Origin: Flavobacteriales bacterium
GTDB lineage: Bacteria > Bacteroidota > Bacteroidia > Flavobacteriales > Flavobacteriaceae
Assembly: GCA_016777325.1 (NCBI GenBank)
Contig: JADHRQ010000001.1
Coordinates: forward strand, 1-64,000
Direction: 5' to 3'
Length of the DNA: 64,000 nucleotides
In this document: piece by piece, positions 16,611-61,007 of the stretch
Position numbering within the stretch: position 1 is the stretch's first letter
How the letters are laid out: each line of letters opens with the position of its first letter
Notes under the pieces: generated by a model
Told to the model about the DNA's origin: nothing
Databases searched by the model: none
Seen by the model: the letters and a program-made list of their open reading frames with translations, nothing else
Translations under genes and position numbers: made by a program

Positions 16611-17734
16611 CTAATATTTAAAGCCTCATTATAAATCTTTTCATACAGAGGAATTACTTTTTTAATGTCATATTTTTTTGCATTCTCAAAAGCTTGTGTT
16701 CTATATTTTTTCTCCAGTGAGCTATCTGTTAAAATCTTAATTGCATTTTGAGCCATAGAATCAATATCACCAACATCACTAGTATATCCTGAATTTCCAT
16801 TTATATTCAAATCCTTTAAACCCCCTGCATTTGATGATATAACAGGTACCTTAAGCGCCATTGCTTCAAGAGCAGCAAGCCCAAAACTTTCTTTTTCAGA
16901 TGGTAATAAAAACAAATCAGATGAACATAATATTTCATCAACTTGATTTGTTTCACCTAAGAAGATAACTTTGTTTTTTAAATTATGTTTTCTAAGAAAT
17001 TCTTTTGCTTTTTTCTTATCAGGACCATCCCCTACCATTATCAATTTTGAATTGATTTTTTCATTAATTTTTTTGAAGATCTCTAAAACATCTTTAATTC
17101 TCTTTAATGGTCTAAAATTACTTACGTGAACTATGATTTTTTCATCCCCATCAGCTATCATATTTCTTTCACATAAGTTGTGTTTTTTATCATACTTATC
17201 TATATCAATAAAATTTGGAATTACTTTAATTTCTTTAGTTATCCCAAAGAACTCTCTTGTATCTTCCATTAGACTTTTGGAAACGCATGTGACAATATCA
17301 GATTTATTAATACTAAAAGTTACAGCAGGTTTATAAAAAGGATGATTTCCAACTAGTGTTATATCAGTCCCATGAAGAGTTGTAATTATAGGGATATTAT
17401 AACCATTTTCATTTAAAATTTTCTTTGCCATATAAGCTGCATATGCATGAGGAATTGCATAATGAACATGAAGAACGTCTATCTTATGCTTTGAAATAAC
17501 ATCAAATAACTTACTTGACAATGCTAGTTCATATGGTTCGTATTTAAATAAAGGATAATCAGGGACATTTACTTCGTGATAGTGAAGATTAGATGACAAT
17601 GCATCTAGTCTAACTGGTTGACTATAAGTTATAAAATGAACCTCATGACCTTTCTTAGACAACTCAATACCTAACTCAGTTGCTACTACACCTGAACCAC
17701 CAAAGGTAGGATAACATACTATTCCAATTTTCAT
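16607..17734 (-). CDS. bshA: N-acetyl-alpha-D-glucosaminyl L-malate synthase BshA
   Basis: This is a 375-residue GT4 glycosyltransferase for the first step of bacillithiol synthesis, joining UDP-GlcNAc to L-malate. The N-terminal MKIGIVCYPTFGGSGVVATELG and the segment HVHYAIPHAYAAYMAK are diagnostic for BshA. The nucleotide-sugar site contains the EX7E motif at E282-E290 (ESFGLAALE). It is the last gene of the long minus-strand operon and overlaps the upstream GH3 gene by 4 bp (stop/start). No bshB or bshC lies in the window. Bacillithiol is a known low-molecular-weight thiol in many Flavobacteria, which fits the redox proteins upstream. Confidence 0.95.
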   Translation of the reverse strand: MKIGIVCYPTFGGSGVVATELGIELSKKGHEVHFITYSQPVRLDALSSNLHYHEVNVPDYPLFKYEPYELALSSKLFDVISKHKIDVLHVHYAIPHAYAAYMAKKILNENGYNIPIITTLHGTDITLVGNHPFYKPAVTFSINKSDIVTCVSKSLMEDTREFFGITKEIKVIPNFIDIDKYDKKHNLCERNMIADGDEKIIVHVSNFRPLKRIKDVLEIFKKINEKINSKLIMVGDGPDKKKAKEFLRKHNLKNKVIFLGETNQVDEILCSSDLFLLPSEKESFGLAALEAMALKVPVISSNAGGLKDLNINGNSGYTSDVGDIDSMAQNAIKILTDSSLEKKYRTQAFENAKKYDIKKVIPLYEKIYNEALNIS

Positions 17735-20616
17735 TTTGAATCTATTAATGATTTGTAAACAATCTCTTGAGCTCTTGTTCTTATATTACTAGTTTGGAGT
17801 AAAGTATTTTCTCTAGTTGGATAGGTTCTGTTTGAAAGAAAAATAAAAATTATTTCTTCATCTGGATCAGCCCAAGCAATTGATCCTGTATAACCATAAT
17901 GGCCGAAACTGTTCATTGAAACTCCTCCAAAAGTTGAACCATGTTTACCTTCAACTTGAGGCTTATCAAATCCGACACCACTTCTATTATCATTATCACA
18001 GTAATAACAATAATTAAAAGTGTTAAATGAATTTTCAGAAAACAATCTCTGATTATTATAAGAACCTTTTTGAATCATAGCCTGAAGAACAATGGCTACT
18101 TCGTATGCATTAGAAAACAATCCTGCATGACCTGAAATGCCTCCAAGCATTGCAGCTCCTTCATCATGGACATGGCCATGAAGTTTAGAATGTCTAAAAA
18201 AATCATCTCTTTCACTAGGAACAATTTCCTCTAAACTAATACTTTCATGGGGGTTAAACATTGTTCTTTTTAATCCTAATGGTTCAAAAATCTTTTCATT
18301 AGCTAAAATATTAAGAGGTTTATTATACAAATCTTCAAACCAAAATTTTAAAAAATAAAATGGCAAATCGGAGTATTTATATTCAAGAGTATCCCTTAAT
18401 TCACTATCTAAAATTGATTTAAATATTTTTTCTCGATAATTTGACTTTAGAAAAAGGTTTTCCGACACCCGAGTTGAAAAAGTAGATTTGGAGTTTGATT
18501 TATAAAATCTTGATTTTGGCTTTTCTTTTCTATTTAGCGTTTCTTCATAGAAGGGGATCCATGGTCTCAATCTAGCATAATGAGATAACATTTCTTTTAT
18601 AGAAATACTGCCCTTTTCATTAAGTTTTTTTTTTGGGAAAAGTTCAGATAAATTTGTCTCAAGAGAAATATTTTTATTGTCAAACTCCTGAAGTACAAGA
18701 GGCATAGTAGCTAATATTTTTGTAATTGATGATAAATCAAAAACATGATTATTTTCAAGCTTATTTACTTTTTCATAGGTGTGATACCCAAAACTTTTAT
18801 TATAAACAATTTTACCCTTTCTAGAGACTAGCATTTGAATTCCAGGAGTCATCATAGAATCAATTGCATTTTTTGCAATAGAATCAAGATATGACAATCT
18901 TGCTGTATCAAAACCCTCGTATGATGGACGAGAAAAACCTATTATGTTTTTTTTATTAAATGTTAATCCATGATTAACTTTAAAGAAATTATTAGAGACT
19001 GGGATTTTTCCTTTAAAAGAACTAACACCAAATAGTAAATCAGCCAAAACTTCTTGTGAAATCATGTTATTTTGGTAACCTATCACAATAGATTCAAAAT
19101 TCTCAATAGATTTAAAAGAATTTAAGCTGTAAGGATTAAGAAATAAGTTTAAAACTACATTGTTGTTAACACTAATACTGTTAATCTTTTCAACTATTTC
19201 TTTAGGAATAATATTAGACGCATATGGACTTTTGCTTGAACCATGATATGAAATTAGAATTCCATCATATTTTGTTTTATTAAAAAGAGGTGTAATATCA
19301 TCATTTGTGTATGTATCAACATTTAAGTATTTATTCATTTTATCATAAAGATGATCTCCTCTATCATTCTCTCCAAATGCAACATGTAGATATTTTTTAT
19401 TATTGGTCAATGGAAGAATATTATTTGTATTTTTTACTAGAGTAATAGCTGAACTCATAGCTTTAGAATAAAGAAGAGTATCTTTTGAGGTATTAACCTT
19501 AGATAATATATTTTCTGTTGAAATATTTTTAAAATTTTTAAGATTTGATTTAGCTTTTAAAGAAAGAATTTTTTTAACAGAACTTGATAATCTTGATTCT
19601 GAAATTTTTCCTTTTTTGAATGATTCTGAAATAAGCTTAACACCTTGTGATACATTTGTTGACATTAAAATAATATCATTCCCAACTTCAAAAGCTCTCA
19701 AATCAACGTTTATGTTAGGATCCTGTAGAACACCCTTCATATCAAGAGCATCTGTTATTGTAATTCCATTAAACTCATAATCATCTCTTAAAAGATTGTT
19801 TACAGTTTTGTAGGATAATGAAGATGGATATTTTTCATCTAATGCTGGAACACTGAGGTGAGCTAGCATTATAGACTCAGCTATTCCATCCTCAATAAGC
19901 CTTCTAAAGGGATAAAGCTCTACATTATTTAATCTTTTAATATCACCATTAATAACAGGTAATGTTTTATGAGAATCTTTATCTGTATCTCCATGACCTG
20001 GAAAATGTTTAATAGATGTGAAAACTCCAGCATCTTTATGTCCTTGTATGTAAGCTTTTGCTTTTAAATACACATTATTAGGATCCTCTCCAAAAGATCT
20101 ATTTCCAATAATTGGATTTTTAGAATTATTATTAACATCAACAGATGGAGAGAAATTATAATGAATACCAAGAGCTTTATTTTGTTCCGCCATTCTCTTT
20201 GATATATCTCTAACCAGAGAATTGTCCTGGATTGCACCAAGAGTCATGTTCCATGGGTGAGCAAAAACATCAGTTAGTCTTTGAGAGGGTCCCCATTCTG
20301 CATCCATAGCAACTAAAAGAGGTGTTTTAGCTATAGTTTGAAATTTATTTAACCATTCTATATGAGAATTAGTTGTTCCTATAGAGAAAATCAATCCTCC
20401 TATTTTATCCTCTTCAACCAACTTCCTTATAACATTAAAATCAGATTGTTCTGGAGAAACCCAATTAATAAATAATTGAGATACTTTTTCCTCTAACGTA
20501 AGAGATGTATATACACTGTCAACCCATTTTTTCTCAGATTGAATTAAACTAGAATAGATATCCTGAGAAAAAACAAAAGAAATATTTAATAATAAAATTA
20601 GGGTAATCCTTAACAT
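17731..20616 (-). CDS. GH3 beta-N-acetylglucosaminidase fused to serine beta-lactamase-like domain
   Basis: This 961-residue secreted fusion begins with a signal peptide ending near FVFSQ. The GH3 (NagZ-like) domain covers about 30-360, with KHFPGHGDTDKDSH at 203-216 (general-acid His/Asp loop) and the nucleophile Asp at about 289 in ITDALDM. A second, GH3 C-terminal-like domain lies at about 385-570. A class C beta-lactamase/DD-peptidase-like domain covers about 590-955, with SITK in DLSSITKIL, YSD in EYKYSDLPF and the HYGYTG segment near the end. The architecture suggests removal of GlcNAc from, and peptide or ester cleavage in, peptidoglycan or muropeptides. The fusion is known in Bacteroidetes. 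An A10 homopolymer (18625-18634) lies inside the coding frame. Confidence 0.93.
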   Translation of the reverse strand: MLRITLILLLNISFVFSQDIYSSLIQSEKKWVDSVYTSLTLEEKVSQLFINWVSPEQSDFNVIRKLVEEDKIGGLIFSIGTTNSHIEWLNKFQTIAKTPLLVAMDAEWGPSQRLTDVFAHPWNMTLGAIQDNSLVRDISKRMAEQNKALGIHYNFSPSVDVNNNSKNPIIGNRSFGEDPNNVYLKAKAYIQGHKDAGVFTSIKHFPGHGDTDKDSHKTLPVINGDIKRLNNVELYPFRRLIEDGIAESIMLAHLSVPALDEKYPSSLSYKTVNNLLRDDYEFNGITITDALDMKGVLQDPNINVDLRAFEVGNDIILMSTNVSQGVKLISESFKKGKISESRLSSSVKKILSLKAKSNLKNFKNISTENILSKVNTSKDTLLYSKAMSSAITLVKNTNNILPLTNNKKYLHVAFGENDRGDHLYDKMNKYLNVDTYTNDDITPLFNKTKYDGILISYHGSSKSPYASNIIPKEIVEKINSISVNNNVVLNLFLNPYSLNSFKSIENFESIVIGYQNNMISQEVLADLLFGVSSFKGKIPVSNNFFKVNHGLTFNKKNIIGFSRPSYEGFDTARLSYLDSIAKNAIDSMMTPGIQMLVSRKGKIVYNKSFGYHTYEKVNKLENNHVFDLSSITKILATMPLVLQEFDNKNISLETNLSELFPKKKLNEKGSISIKEMLSHYARLRPWIPFYEETLNRKEKPKSRFYKSNSKSTFSTRVSENLFLKSNYREKIFKSILDSELRDTLEYKYSDLPFYFLKFWFEDLYNKPLNILANEKIFEPLGLKRTMFNPHESISLEEIVPSERDDFFRHSKLHGHVHDEGAAMLGGISGHAGLFSNAYEVAIVLQAMIQKGSYNNQRLFSENSFNTFNYCYYCDNDNRSGVGFDKPQVEGKHGSTFGGVSMNSFGHYGYTGSIAWADPDEEIIFIFLSNRTYPTRENTLLQTSNIRTRAQEIVYKSLIDSK

Positions 20617-57072: not shown

Positions 57073-57105
57073 TTGTATTACGAAAAAAAAAAAATTGTAG
57101 ATTTG
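57073..57105 (+). promoter_or_regulatory. promoter with A12 tract in its spacer
   Basis: TTG (57073-57075), 22 nt, TAGATTTG (57098-57105) matches the Bacteroidetes promoter pattern. Twelve consecutive A residues (57083-57094) lie within the spacer. The transcript should start near 57110, about 17 nt before ATG 57127, which supports that ATG over the in-frame TTG at 57073. Confidence 0.6.
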
Positions 57106-57126
57106 TTAGAATCAAAAATTACCAAA

Positions 57127-57783
57127 ATGAATAAAAAACGTGCATTATTTTTCTTTTTATGGTGTTTATCAATCTTTTTTGCATCACAAATATACAGTTC
57201 TATTAATGGACCTATAAAATTTAATAAAGTAAAAAACGAGAGATATACTCAAGTTATAAATAGGCTAAAAGATATAAGAAATGCTCAGATTGCTCACAAA
57301 GATGTAACTGGCTTTTACGCAAATAACTTTGATAGCTTAGTAAGTTTTATTGACAATGGGATATTTACACTTATAGAGAAAAGGGATTCATCTTATCTTG
57401 AGTATAATAGATTATACAGAATTGATATGTTAAAAGAGGTTGAAATCGTTGATACTCTTGGTTTTGTTTCAGTTAAAGATTCACTATTTGGTCAAAATGA
57501 ATCATATAAAATGATGGCAAAAGTTCCTATCAAAGGAACAGATTCAGAGTTTTCTATTAAAGCAGATATAATTGATAAAAATGGTTATCAGGTCCCAGTA
57601 TTTGAAGTTAAAGTCACAAAAGATATTGTCCTGTTTGATCAAAATAAAGATTTACTAGATCAAGAGAATAAGGTTATTTCGGTTGATGGTGTTAATGGAA
57701 AAGAGATTATTTTAGGTTCTATGTCTGAGGTAAGTACTAGTGGAAACTGGCCTTCTATTTTTGATGCAAAAAACAAAGAATAA
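57127..57783 (+). CDS. membrane-anchored conserved flavobacterial protein, unknown function
   Basis: This 218-residue protein has a basic start, one transmembrane helix (ALFFFLWCLSIFFASQIYSS), then a helical segment RYTQVINRLKDIRNAQIAHK and a beta-rich extracytoplasmic region. The layout, a long N-terminal helix leading into a small globular domain with a GFYANNFDSLVSFID stretch, recalls pseudopilin-like proteins. It has no prepilin peptidase site, however, so this is only a resemblance. It overlaps the DUF3822 gene by 20 bp, and the order kdsB, this gene, DUF3822, rsmD appears to be a conserved flavobacterial neighbourhood. An alternative TTG start (57073) would add 18 residues. Confidence 0.75.
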   Translation: MNKKRALFFFLWCLSIFFASQIYSSINGPIKFNKVKNERYTQVINRLKDIRNAQIAHKDVTGFYANNFDSLVSFIDNGIFTLIEKRDSSYLEYNRLYRIDMLKEVEIVDTLGFVSVKDSLFGQNESYKMMAKVPIKGTDSEFSIKADIIDKNGYQVPVFEVKVTKDIVLFDQNKDLLDQENKVISVDGVNGKEIILGSMSEVSTSGNWPSIFDAKNKE

Positions 57784-58513: not shown

Positions 58514-59036
58514 AAAAAGTATCTCAATAAGAGCTCCAAAAAATCTCCCAGTTAGGCCAACTACAGATAAGGTTAAAGAATCTCTATTTAATATAATTTC
58601 AAATAAATTTGATATTGCTGGATTAACTGTGTTAGACTTATTTTCTGGAACAGGAAACATTTCATATGAATTTGCATCAAGAGGTTGTTCTGATTTAGTA
58701 TCAGTTGACAATAATCATAATTGTATAAAATTTATAAGTAAAACTTCATTGAAGTTTGAGTTTAATATTCAAACAAAAAAAATAGATTATAAAACTTATT
58801 TAAAGAATACTAAAAAAAAATTTGATATAATTTTTGCAGACCCACCTTATGATTTTTTAAAAAAACAATACATTGAAATGATTAATCAAATAAAAGAATT
58901 TGATATCCTAAATAAGGATGGAGAAATAATAATTGAACATAGTTCAAATGTAATCTTATTTGATTCAAATGAAAATATAGAAGAAAGAAAGTATGGTTCT
59001 TCTGTATTAACTATTTTAAAAAAAGCAAGCCTATAA
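58491..59036 (+). CDS. rsmD: 16S rRNA (guanine966-N2)-methyltransferase RsmD
   Basis: This is a 181-residue SAM-dependent methyltransferase. MRIISGTKKSISIRAPKNLP, RPTTDKVKESLFNII, the SAM loop VLDLFSGTGNISYEFASRG and the catalytic DPPYDF are diagnostic. It starts inside the DUF3822 gene. Its last four codons (59025-59036) coincide, on the other strand, with the 3' end of the RNase P RNA gene. Confidence 0.96.
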   Translation: MRIISGTKKSISIRAPKNLPVRPTTDKVKESLFNIISNKFDIAGLTVLDLFSGTGNISYEFASRGCSDLVSVDNNHNCIKFISKTSLKFEFNIQTKKIDYKTYLKNTKKKFDIIFADPPYDFLKKQYIEMINQIKEFDILNKDGEIIIEHSSNVILFDSNENIEERKYGSSVLTILKKASL

Positions 59037-59306
59037 GCCGGATTCTGTCGAGTCTTATCATTTATCTAGATGTAATATTACTATTACATTCATACCGCCT
59101 ACCCTTCTACTTAAAACGAGCAATTTTAAAATGTAGATATACTTGGCGTTTCACCATGCAGAGTTTACAAGATTCCACTACAGCATTACCTGTACATACT
59201 TTCTGTTGCACTATTCCTATCTATAAATAGATGACGGGTGTTACCCGTTGCATTGCTCTTTGGTGTCCGGACTTTCCTCTGAATAAACAGCGATAAGTCA
59301 GCTTGC
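59025..59306 (-). ncRNA. rnpB: RNase P RNA (bacterial type A), compact
   Basis: The minus strand carries the conserved RNase P segments in order: GAGGAAAGTCCGGACACC near the 5' end, CAACAGAAAGT, AATGCTGTAGTGGAATC, GGTGAAACGCCAAG, and GACTCGACAGAATCCGGCTT near the 3' end. The ends are set by a perfect 6-bp P1 helix, GCAAGC (59306-59301) with GCTTGC (59030-59025), followed by seven T residues that probably terminate transcription. This gives 282 nt, shorter than the roughly 350-400 nt typical of the class, so one or more peripheral helices seem reduced. The RNA is the catalytic part of the enzyme that trims tRNA 5' ends. Its 3' end overlaps rsmD by 12 bp. Confidence 0.95.
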
Positions 59307-59310
59307 ACAG

Positions 59311-59388: not shown

Positions 59389-59396
59389 TTGATAAT
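59383..59396. repeat. 14-bp direct repeat, copy 2 (TATTTGTTGATAAT)
   Basis: Second copy of the repeat at 59320-59333. It overlaps the dnaX -7 box, the predicted transcript start and the first two bases of the dnaX ATG, so a protein bound here could block dnaX transcription. Confidence 0.6.
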
Positions 59397-60456
59397 GAAT
59401 AAATCCTCAATTTCATCAGCATCTGAATACAGACCTAAAGATTTCAGTGATATGATTGGGCAAGATGCCATAGTCAAAACACTTTCAAATGCTATAAAAA
59501 ATGATCAAATACCTCAAGCTCTTCTCTTTTGTGGACCAAGAGGTGTAGGCAAAACATCCTGCGCAAGGATTCTTGCTAAACAAATAAATGATCTAGATGA
59601 AAACTTTGAGTATAATATTTTTGAACTTGATGCAGCATCTAATAATTCTGTTGAAGATATTAGAAATATTACTGATCAAATTAGGATACCTCCTCAAATT
59701 GGAAAATATAAAGTCTATATCATTGATGAAGTGCATATGCTTTCAAATGCTGCATTTAATGCATTCTTAAAATCATTGGAAGAGCCTCCAAAACATGTTG
59801 TATTTATTTTAGCAACAACTGAAAAAAATAAAATTATACCAACAATTCTATCTAGATGTCAAATTTATGATTTTAAGAAAGTTGACAGCTTGTCAATTAC
59901 CAAACTTTTAACTAGCATTTGTAATGATAAAAAAATTAAGTTTGATGAAAATTCGTTAGCATTGATAGCAGAGAAATCTGATGGATCAATTAGAGATTCA
60001 CTCTCAATGTTTGATAGATTGGTAAGTTTTACGGATTCTAATTTAACAATCGCTGATGTAACATCTAATTTAAATGTTTTAGATTATGATACATATTTTG
60101 ATTTATCAAGCTTAATTAAAAATAAAGATATTCCAGGAATTCTAACAAAATACAATGATGTTTTTAGTCGTGGTTTTGATGATGTCAATTTTTTAAATGG
60201 ATTATCTAGACACTTAAGAGAAATGTTAATTAGCAAGTTAGATTATTCAGATAAAATATCTAATTTAAACGATGAACTAAGGGCAAAATATATAAATCAA
60301 TCAAGTGATTTTCAGGATGAAGATCTTATTCAAATGATTCAAATAATTAATGAATCTTTAATAAATTATCAAAAAATCAATGATAAAAGAATTCATGTTG
60401 AGCTTTGCTTGATGAGAATAGCTTCAATTGATAGCATTAAAAAAAAAACTCCTTAA
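59395..60456 (+). CDS. dnaX: DNA polymerase III subunit gamma (dnaX zero-frame product)
   Basis: This 353-residue clamp-loader ATPase has Walker A GPRGVGKTSCARIL at 47-60, Walker B IIDEVHML around 109-116, and the SRC motif LSRCQ with the Arg finger at 154. The collar domain III ends near 345. The four-Cys zinc module of proteobacterial DnaX is absent, as is usual in Bacteroidetes. The zero frame ends with KKKTP right after an A10 run (60439-60448), which is the gamma/tau boundary. The tau tail is encoded in the -1 frame immediately downstream. The start is ATG 59395; an upstream in-frame TTG (59386) lies within the -7 promoter box. gyrA, ppx and ppk are not functionally linked. Gamma would be an active loader lacking the polymerase- and helicase-binding tail. 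Confidence 0.95.
   Translation: MNKSSISSASEYRPKDFSDMIGQDAIVKTLSNAIKNDQIPQALLFCGPRGVGKTSCARILAKQINDLDENFEYNIFELDAASNNSVEDIRNITDQIRIPPQIGKYKVYIIDEVHMLSNAAFNAFLKSLEEPPKHVVFILATTEKNKIIPTILSRCQIYDFKKVDSLSITKLLTSICNDKKIKFDENSLALIAEKSDGSIRDSLSMFDRLVSFTDSNLTIADVTSNLNVLDYDTYFDLSSLIKNKDIPGILTKYNDVFSRGFDDVNFLNGLSRHLREMLISKLDYSDKISNLNDELRAKYINQSSDFQDEDLIQMIQIINESLINYQKINDKRIHVELCLMRIASIDSIKKKTP
60439..60448 (+). other. dnaX: A10 slippery run at the dnaX gamma/tau boundary
   Basis: Ten A residues are read as AAA AAA AAA A in frame zero (codons 349-351). A -1 ribosomal shift, or one extra A in the mRNA, moves reading into the -1 frame (AAC TCC TTA). That frame is open for 186 codons to 61007. No strong downstream stem-loop or upstream Shine-Dalgarno-like stimulator is visible, so transcriptional slippage, as reported for the A9 of Thermus dnaX, fits better than the E. 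coli ribosomal mechanism. Confidence 0.75.
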
Positions 60457-61007
60457 TTAAAACTTCAGAGATAATCAATCTTATAAAAAAGGAATCAAAA
60501 GAACTTGATAATAGTTCTGAATCTATAAATAAAAAATTGTTTAGTTCACCTCAGCTTGAAGAAGTTTCATCTTTATCTTTAGCTAGCTTAAGCTTTAAAA
60601 ATTCCAATGATGAATTAGAAGAGCAAAAATTAGATGATTTACCTTCAGATAATTTTACAGAAAATGATTTTAATATTGCTTGGAAAAAATTCTGTGATAT
60701 AGAAAAAGATAAAGGAAACAAAAATATTCTTTCTCTTTTAAACATGAATAATCCCACTATTAATAATAATATTATTTCAATATCTACAGTTAATAAAATG
60801 AATTATAAGGAAGTTAAAGGTTACAAGAGTACAATTCAAACTTTTTTGTCAAAGGAATTAAATAATTATTCAATATCAGTAGATGTTACATTATCAGAAG
60901 AGACTACAAAAAGCTCATACTTAGATAGTAAAGATAAACTTGATTTATTAATTAAAGACAATAAAAACATAGGTAAATTAATTACTGAATTGAAGTTAAG
61001 AATCTAA
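60449..61007 (+). CDS. dnaX: tau-specific C-terminal part of DnaX, in the -1 frame
   Basis: From the A10 run the -1 frame reads without a stop for about 186 codons (start NSLIKTSEIINLIKKE) to the TAA at 61007. A charged linker is followed by a domain with FNIAWKKFCDIEKDKGNKN, VKGYKSTIQTFLSKELNNYS and LDLLIKDNKNIGKLITEL. This layout (Trp-containing helix, repeated basic helix, final conserved-length tail) resembles the C-terminus of flavobacterial DnaX. There is no convincing separate start or promoter; a TTG at 60537 begins inside the linker. Joined to the first frame by one -1 shift the product would be about 537 residues, consistent with a full tau. Its end overlaps the convergent ppx gene by 12 bp. 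Confidence 0.8.

Follow-up and report, generated by a model that had tools for sequence, protein, structure and literature searches.

The window, a stretch of 64,000 nucleotides from a Flavobacteriales bacterium, carries a dnaX gene (59395-61007, plus strand) that is divided into two adjacent open reading frames (ORFs) joined by a -1 change at the DNA level. The zero frame (59395-60456) encodes the gamma form of the clamp loader subunit, a protein of 353 amino acids; its start is taken here at ATG 59395, and the ORF finder sets it at TTG 59386 instead. The gamma protein matches N-terminal DnaX models (TIGR02397, E = 4.7e-110; also PF13177, PF22608, and PF12169) and contains the AAA+ part, the lid, and collar domain III, the last of which (PF12169) spans residues 219-350. 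Because the N-terminal match extends to collar domain III, the frame break lies at the gamma/tau boundary. The junction itself is a slippery run of exactly ten As (A10, 60439-60448, plus strand), conserved in the loci of the same genus and family. Across the run the zero frame reads AAA AAA AAA ACT CCT TAA, that is, KKKTP followed by the gamma stop (60454-60456), two codons past A10. The +1 frame stops after two codons at TAA 60458-60460, and together these stops close both non-tau frames within a few codons of the run.

The -1 frame is uninterrupted from 60441 to the stop at 61005-61007 and provides the tau-specific tail (60450-61007, plus strand; 185 codons and a stop). A Pfam search of this tail gave no match above the cut-offs; in NCBIfam, it matches positions 473-612 of 614 in the full-length DnaX model PRK14971 (E = 1.1e-14). 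Since the match covers the C-terminus of the model, the -1-frame product is the tau tail. Thus, the original prediction of a zero frame ending in KKKTP at A10, of a DnaX-like C-terminal tail in a -1 frame open from the run, and of a break after collar domain III is borne out. Gamma serves in clamp loading, and tau combines clamp loading with polymerase tethering through its tail. The zinc-binding four-cysteine module present in E. coli DnaX is absent from the window protein (59395-59700) and from the other family loci inspected; the four-Cys pattern occurs in 34 of the 281 loci of a wider dnaX set. Just upstream of dnaX, on the opposite strand, lies a class A RNase P RNA (RF00010, 190 bits, E = 2.1e-61; 59018-59309, minus strand).

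In the genus of the window, dnaX was found at threshold in 22 of 25 genomes, the remaining three being drafts of 72-78% completeness. All 22 loci have A10-A12 at the junction; 14 are split (A10-A11), and eight are continuous. A set of 42 loci from public assemblies, about 19 of them from the same genus genomes, also has A10-A12 throughout. The first tau-frame codons past the run (SLIKTSE-like, before TTG 60537) are alike in split and continuous species. The tau-frame Leu-Ile codons of the genus (TTA ATT, CTA ATT, CTG ATT, and TTG ATT) contain stops of the non-tau frames (TAA or TGA), again in both kinds of species. Locus L073 shares the A10 and aligns to the window over 1250 bp at 99.04% identity, with 12 mismatches and no gaps; judging from this identity, it seems to come from another strain of the same species. 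The near relatives L004-L008 have A11 followed by T in place of the A10 and C of the window and are split at the same stop. The dnaX contigs of L073 and L071 are of the window's kind and come from bins labelled Campylobacteraceae and Gammaproteobacteria, respectively; both are probably mis-binned.

The wider survey covered the family (probably Flavobacteriaceae) and the class (probably Bacteroidia). The family sample consists of 129 genomes, one per genus; dnaX passed the threshold in 128, and all 128 loci were examined. The run was taken as the longest stretch of As in an interval reaching from 100 nt upstream to 200 nt downstream (160 nt in one survey) of the point where the match to the window gamma protein ends. 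It has at least nine As in 127 of the loci: A10 in 107 loci, A11 in 15, A9 in four, and A13 in one, with the mode at 10; the remaining locus has A6. It is kept in all 13 loci with a GC content of at least 44%, and the GC content of run-bearing loci goes up to 50%. Among the family loci with at least 42% GC, of which there are 22, all bearing the run, AAG accounts for 46% of the upstream Lys codons (226 of 492). Since the run needs two or three consecutive AAA codons while AAG is common, what is kept appears to be the letters themselves and not just the lysines. The run is found in all three codon phases (116, 7, and 4 loci), and only one of the 128 genes has a second run of at least nine As in its upstream gamma-coding part. 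The non-tau frames stop within five codons in 234 of 254 cases, compared with 41% of 12,800 random control positions in the same genes.

Outside the family, 60 loci were picked by hand to spread over families, not at random: 20 from 23 genomes of the order, 20 from 37 genomes of the class, and 20 from more distant genomes. Runs of at least nine As are present in 18 of the 20 loci from the rest of the order, 18 of the 20 from the rest of the class, and 11 of the 20 from the rest of the phylum; in these loci the run can be some distance beyond the end of the match, as in L233 (127 nt). Stops close to the run are less pronounced than in the family: the non-tau frames stop within five codons in 27 of 35 cases in the order, 32 of 36 in the class, and 13 of 22 in the other classes. 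The class and more distant loci were drawn from a phylum search in which 226 of 296 genomes passed the dnaX threshold, and some of the surveyed loci come from draft or metagenome assemblies.

The frame state varies among these loci. Tau is in the template frame in 103 of the 127 family loci with the run; the other 24 are split, 20 needing a -1 change and four a +1 change (one of the four, L194, is doubtful, being counted at its second run). L187 is a +1 split with A10 in a one-contig genome, and L195, outside the 128-locus family set, is a further +1 split. In g132, a large genus, all 17 loci are split with A10. The original prediction held that most flavobacterial dnaX genes are continuous, which agrees with the 103 loci above, and that the window arrangement would be lineage-specific. 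The latter does not hold: the run is found in every one of the 22 genus loci and in nearly all family loci, and the split recurs in the 24 family loci. The relatives are thus not uniformly runless with an uninterrupted dnaX, the outcome that the original prediction named as contrary to it; the run is near-universal among them.

The smallest numbers of frame-state changes on trees of the gamma part are 22 and 23 by two tree methods (169 rows), four changes falling within the genus; this count is approximate, as support is poor at many nodes of the family tree, 71 of 170 being open. Four doubtful rows are omitted from the 169: L024, which has N bases next to the A-run; L194, with its two runs; L100, which lacks a long run; and L151, truncated by a contig end. 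With all four included, 23 changes are obtained on 173 rows. In L194 (genome G106), two long A-runs lie about 70 codons apart, and the zero frame reads through the first and ends shortly past the second. L100 (G066) is counted as the single family locus without a long run, beside the 103 continuous and 24 split ones; its dnaX is split at the same place, with GGAAAAG replacing the long A-run, which may reflect a change to ribosomal frameshifting or a faulty assembly. L237 (G051, a 345-kb contig with a locus GC of 20%) belongs to a very reduced genome; its dnaX ends near the gamma boundary and has only A7, and the tau tail seems to be lost.

Long A-runs are rare in the coding part of the window genome. 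In 292 non-overlapping ORFs (about 350 kb), we observed four runs of at least ten As vs. 18.6 expected (40 synonymous shuffles, minimum 12). A9 is mildly avoided (25 seen vs. 37.2 expected), and A7 and A8 are not avoided. Two of the four longest runs are at codons 2-3 of their ORFs, one is in the middle of a GH3 gene, and one is that of dnaX. Following the logic in the accessible part of PMC1088944, such avoidance is expected of a genome whose polymerase slips at these runs.

We consider it probable that A10 is a conserved slippage site, at which slippage of RNA polymerase gives both gamma and tau and around which the templated frame drifts. On A10, the polymerase would make mRNAs whose A-runs differ in length from the template. 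The mRNAs of templated length, or off by three, would give gamma, translation stopping two codons later; those with one A more or two fewer would have the tau tail in frame; and those in the third frame would meet an immediate stop and give a gamma-like product. A single gene would then be the source of both proteins. In most relatives, the same run would act on a template that encodes tau, and slippage would yield gamma: the continuous loci have the same run and close stops in the other frames and are therefore predicted to slip too. Since the frame would be scrambled at the run in either case, it seems of little consequence which product is templated, and the template frame has changed repeatedly. 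Less firmly, we lean toward a broader scenario in which dnaX is frame-indifferent throughout the class (probably Bacteroidia): a near-obligatory poly-A slippage site would determine the gamma:tau ratio to such a degree that the template frame would be nearly neutral, flipping freely among 0, -1, and +1. The proposal of slippage as the likely source of both proteins, already part of the original prediction, gains support from the conservation of the run at the junction and from the closeness of the non-tau stops.

Another scenario is that ribosomes, and not the polymerase, change frame: -1 programmed frameshifting in the A-run, as in E. coli dnaX, would make tau here and gamma in the continuous relatives. 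The run contains A_AAA_AAA, the split of the window needs a -1 change, as do 20 of the 24 run-bearing family splits, and the reversed dnaX type is treated as ribosomal in the accessible text of a 2016 review (PMC5009743). Of the 128 family loci, 87 have a 4-base SD-like motif within 18 nt upstream of the run, and in L011, L014, and L023 the structure after the run ranks in the top tenth, both of which are compatible with a ribosomal share. However, the 4-base motif is found in only one of the 22 genus loci and not in the window, and a 5-base motif in the same interval is absent from all 128 family and 22 genus loci. A stimulatory hairpin was not found in the window or in the split loci. The 70 bases starting 4 nt after the run, ranked against other stretches of the same loci, fall at percentile 0.375 in the window, in line with the absence of an evident downstream hairpin stated in the original prediction. 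The structure is no stronger than elsewhere in the loci, with a median percentile of 0.66 for 126 family loci and 0.68 for 22 split ones, none of the latter being at or below 0.1; in the genus, the median is 0.62, and the three of 22 loci at or below 0.1 (L011, L014, and L023) are all continuous. The A_AAA_AAG heptamer is not present at the window run, where C follows A10. Moreover, the conserved run length of 9-11 exceeds the need of a 7-base site, stops are close in both other frames, and -1 shifting would not give tau in the +1 splits. By a criterion found in the accessible text of PMC3711429, the occurrence of both -1 and +1 splits favours transcriptional slippage, since a -1 ribosomal shift is unable to join +1 frames. 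Ribosomal frameshifting as the source of the second product is thus unlikely. Based on the sequence data, it is most likely the polymerase that slips, possibly with a ribosomal share; the preference of the original prediction for RNA polymerase slippage is supported by the lack of evident stimulators and by the presence of both -1 and +1 splits.

A homopolymer error in sequencing or assembly, with the real gene being one continuous frame, was regarded in the original prediction as the main alternative. The genome is a draft (18 contigs, 54.7% complete), and homopolymers are error-prone. However, the identical A10 is found in another strain (L073); the run of L004-L008 differs from that of the window by a C-to-A substitution and not by an indel, yet these loci are split at the same stop, which counts against an error; and 12 of the 14 split genus loci are in different public assemblies, some seemingly single-cell (AG-...) and others marine MAGs. 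With the second strain, the substitution-only relatives, and the split loci across different assemblies, we reject this explanation as having a negligible probability. Alternatively, tau may have been lost, with gamma alone being made and the tail being a decaying remnant or a separate small protein starting from TTG 60537. An ORF from this TTG exists, and the very small genome of L237 seems to retain only a gamma-length dnaX. On the other hand, the tail has a dN/dS ratio of about 0.2, as in continuous relatives: the medians are 0.22 among split genus members (76 pairs) and 0.29 among continuous ones (19 pairs), and those of the gamma part are 0.09 and 0.11, respectively; these pairs are what remained of 91 split and 28 continuous pairs after saturated or nearly identical ones were dropped. 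As judged by these ratios, the tau tail is under purifying selection, and hence in use, among the split relatives. Split and continuous species have similar early tau-frame codons upstream of the TTG, the split state is common to many species and genera, and the tethering of polymerases is an established role of tau. Loss of tau is therefore very improbable. Finally, replication slippage at the run could produce mixed populations with gamma or tau templates, that is, phase variation at the DNA level. The frame state does vary among relatives of one genus, and long A-runs mutate. Nevertheless, the run length is equal in two strains at 99.0% identity, the loci of g132 are uniformly split with A10, and an essential replication gene would be a poor contingency locus; we regard this scenario as extremely improbable.

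The window dnaX is a new member of a kind already published. Antonov et al. 2013 (PMC3711429, accessible text) reported two-ORF dnaX with poly-A for 17 genes of 12 genera, nine of the genes having 10 As, with three named examples of the Chlorobi type; transcriptional realignment was proposed for this type, whose splits are -1 only. Some of the 12 genera may belong to the family surveyed here. As in that type, gamma of the window ends in the zero frame at a conserved poly-A, and tau needs a -1 change at the DNA level. Unlike in that type, nearly every family genus examined here has the run, the splits go both ways, and there are many switches. In dnaX of Thermus thermophilus, transcriptional slippage at A9 has been demonstrated (Larsen 2000, via PMC1088944 and PMC5009743). 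Both genes have at least nine As at the gamma/tau boundary and stops in both non-tau frames, and gamma and tau come from one gene in Thermus, as is predicted for the window. The Thermus template encodes tau and its slippage has been shown, whereas the window template encodes gamma and slippage is predicted; a Thermus-like tau template is found in eight of the 22 genus loci and in the 103 continuous family loci. Published figures put slippage in Thermus dnaX at 50% and the share of full-length transcripts from broken endosymbiont genes at 30%.

The -1 ribosomal frameshift of E. coli dnaX leads to the same two products as predicted for the window, but that gene has A_AAA_AAG, an SD-like element, and a hairpin (as given in the accessible parts of PMC5009743 and PMC3711429), and the window is without all three. 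In Shigella mxiE and in Buchnera and Blochmannia genes, a longer product is considered to be recovered from split frames by slippage at a long A/T run (accessible parts of PMC1088944 and PMC3017870), as is proposed here; dnaX of Blochmannia is broken inside the tau-only region, whereas that of the window is broken at the gamma/tau junction. According to the available text of Atkins et al. 2016 (PMC5009743), a one-base change can reverse the templated product if shifting is near 50%, and dnaX is named as a case. The same text assigns the reversed type, with gamma in frame and tau made by shifting, to ribosomal frameshifting in a few bacteria, and mentions suspected stimulators for the reversed dnaX of Chlorobium phaeobacteroides. 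The near-universal distribution in the family, the +1 splits, and the repeated switching were not found in the literature searched, as far as its main texts were openly accessible.

The bacterial need for gamma is debated. As stated in the accessible part of a 2012 review (PMC3290774), most bacteria besides enterobacteria and Thermus have no maintained dnaX frameshift signatures and may not make gamma. The run is kept in 127 of 128 family genomes, also at high GC, and long A-runs are avoided elsewhere in the window genome, which suggests that both forms are selected. These conservation patterns suggest that making gamma and tau is selected over the whole family, and probably beyond; for this family, the survey thus suggests otherwise than the review. 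If the frame-indifferent scenario is true, gamma made by slippage would be a selected trait of the whole class, contrary to the tau-only view of most bacteria. The surveyed loci form a natural series of genes with a switched templated product, in which the effect of the frame state on the gamma:tau ratio is directly testable. For annotation, split dnaX genes in this family should not be labelled pseudogenes or errors.

Two other long A-runs of the window were noted. The gene for a GH3 and beta-lactamase-fold protein (17734-20616, minus strand) contains an A10, in frame, at codon 660. This run was rejected as a further slippage site for lack of conservation: at least ten As are present at only five of 17 corresponding places in the genus, the window included, and the other 12 have A4-A8. 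In G006, the corresponding run has a length of A11, and the gene is matched as two separate pieces, one with internal stops. An ORF at 57073-57780 (plus strand) starts with TTG and has A12 at codon 3; its true start is perhaps later, in which case the run would possibly lie upstream of the gene.
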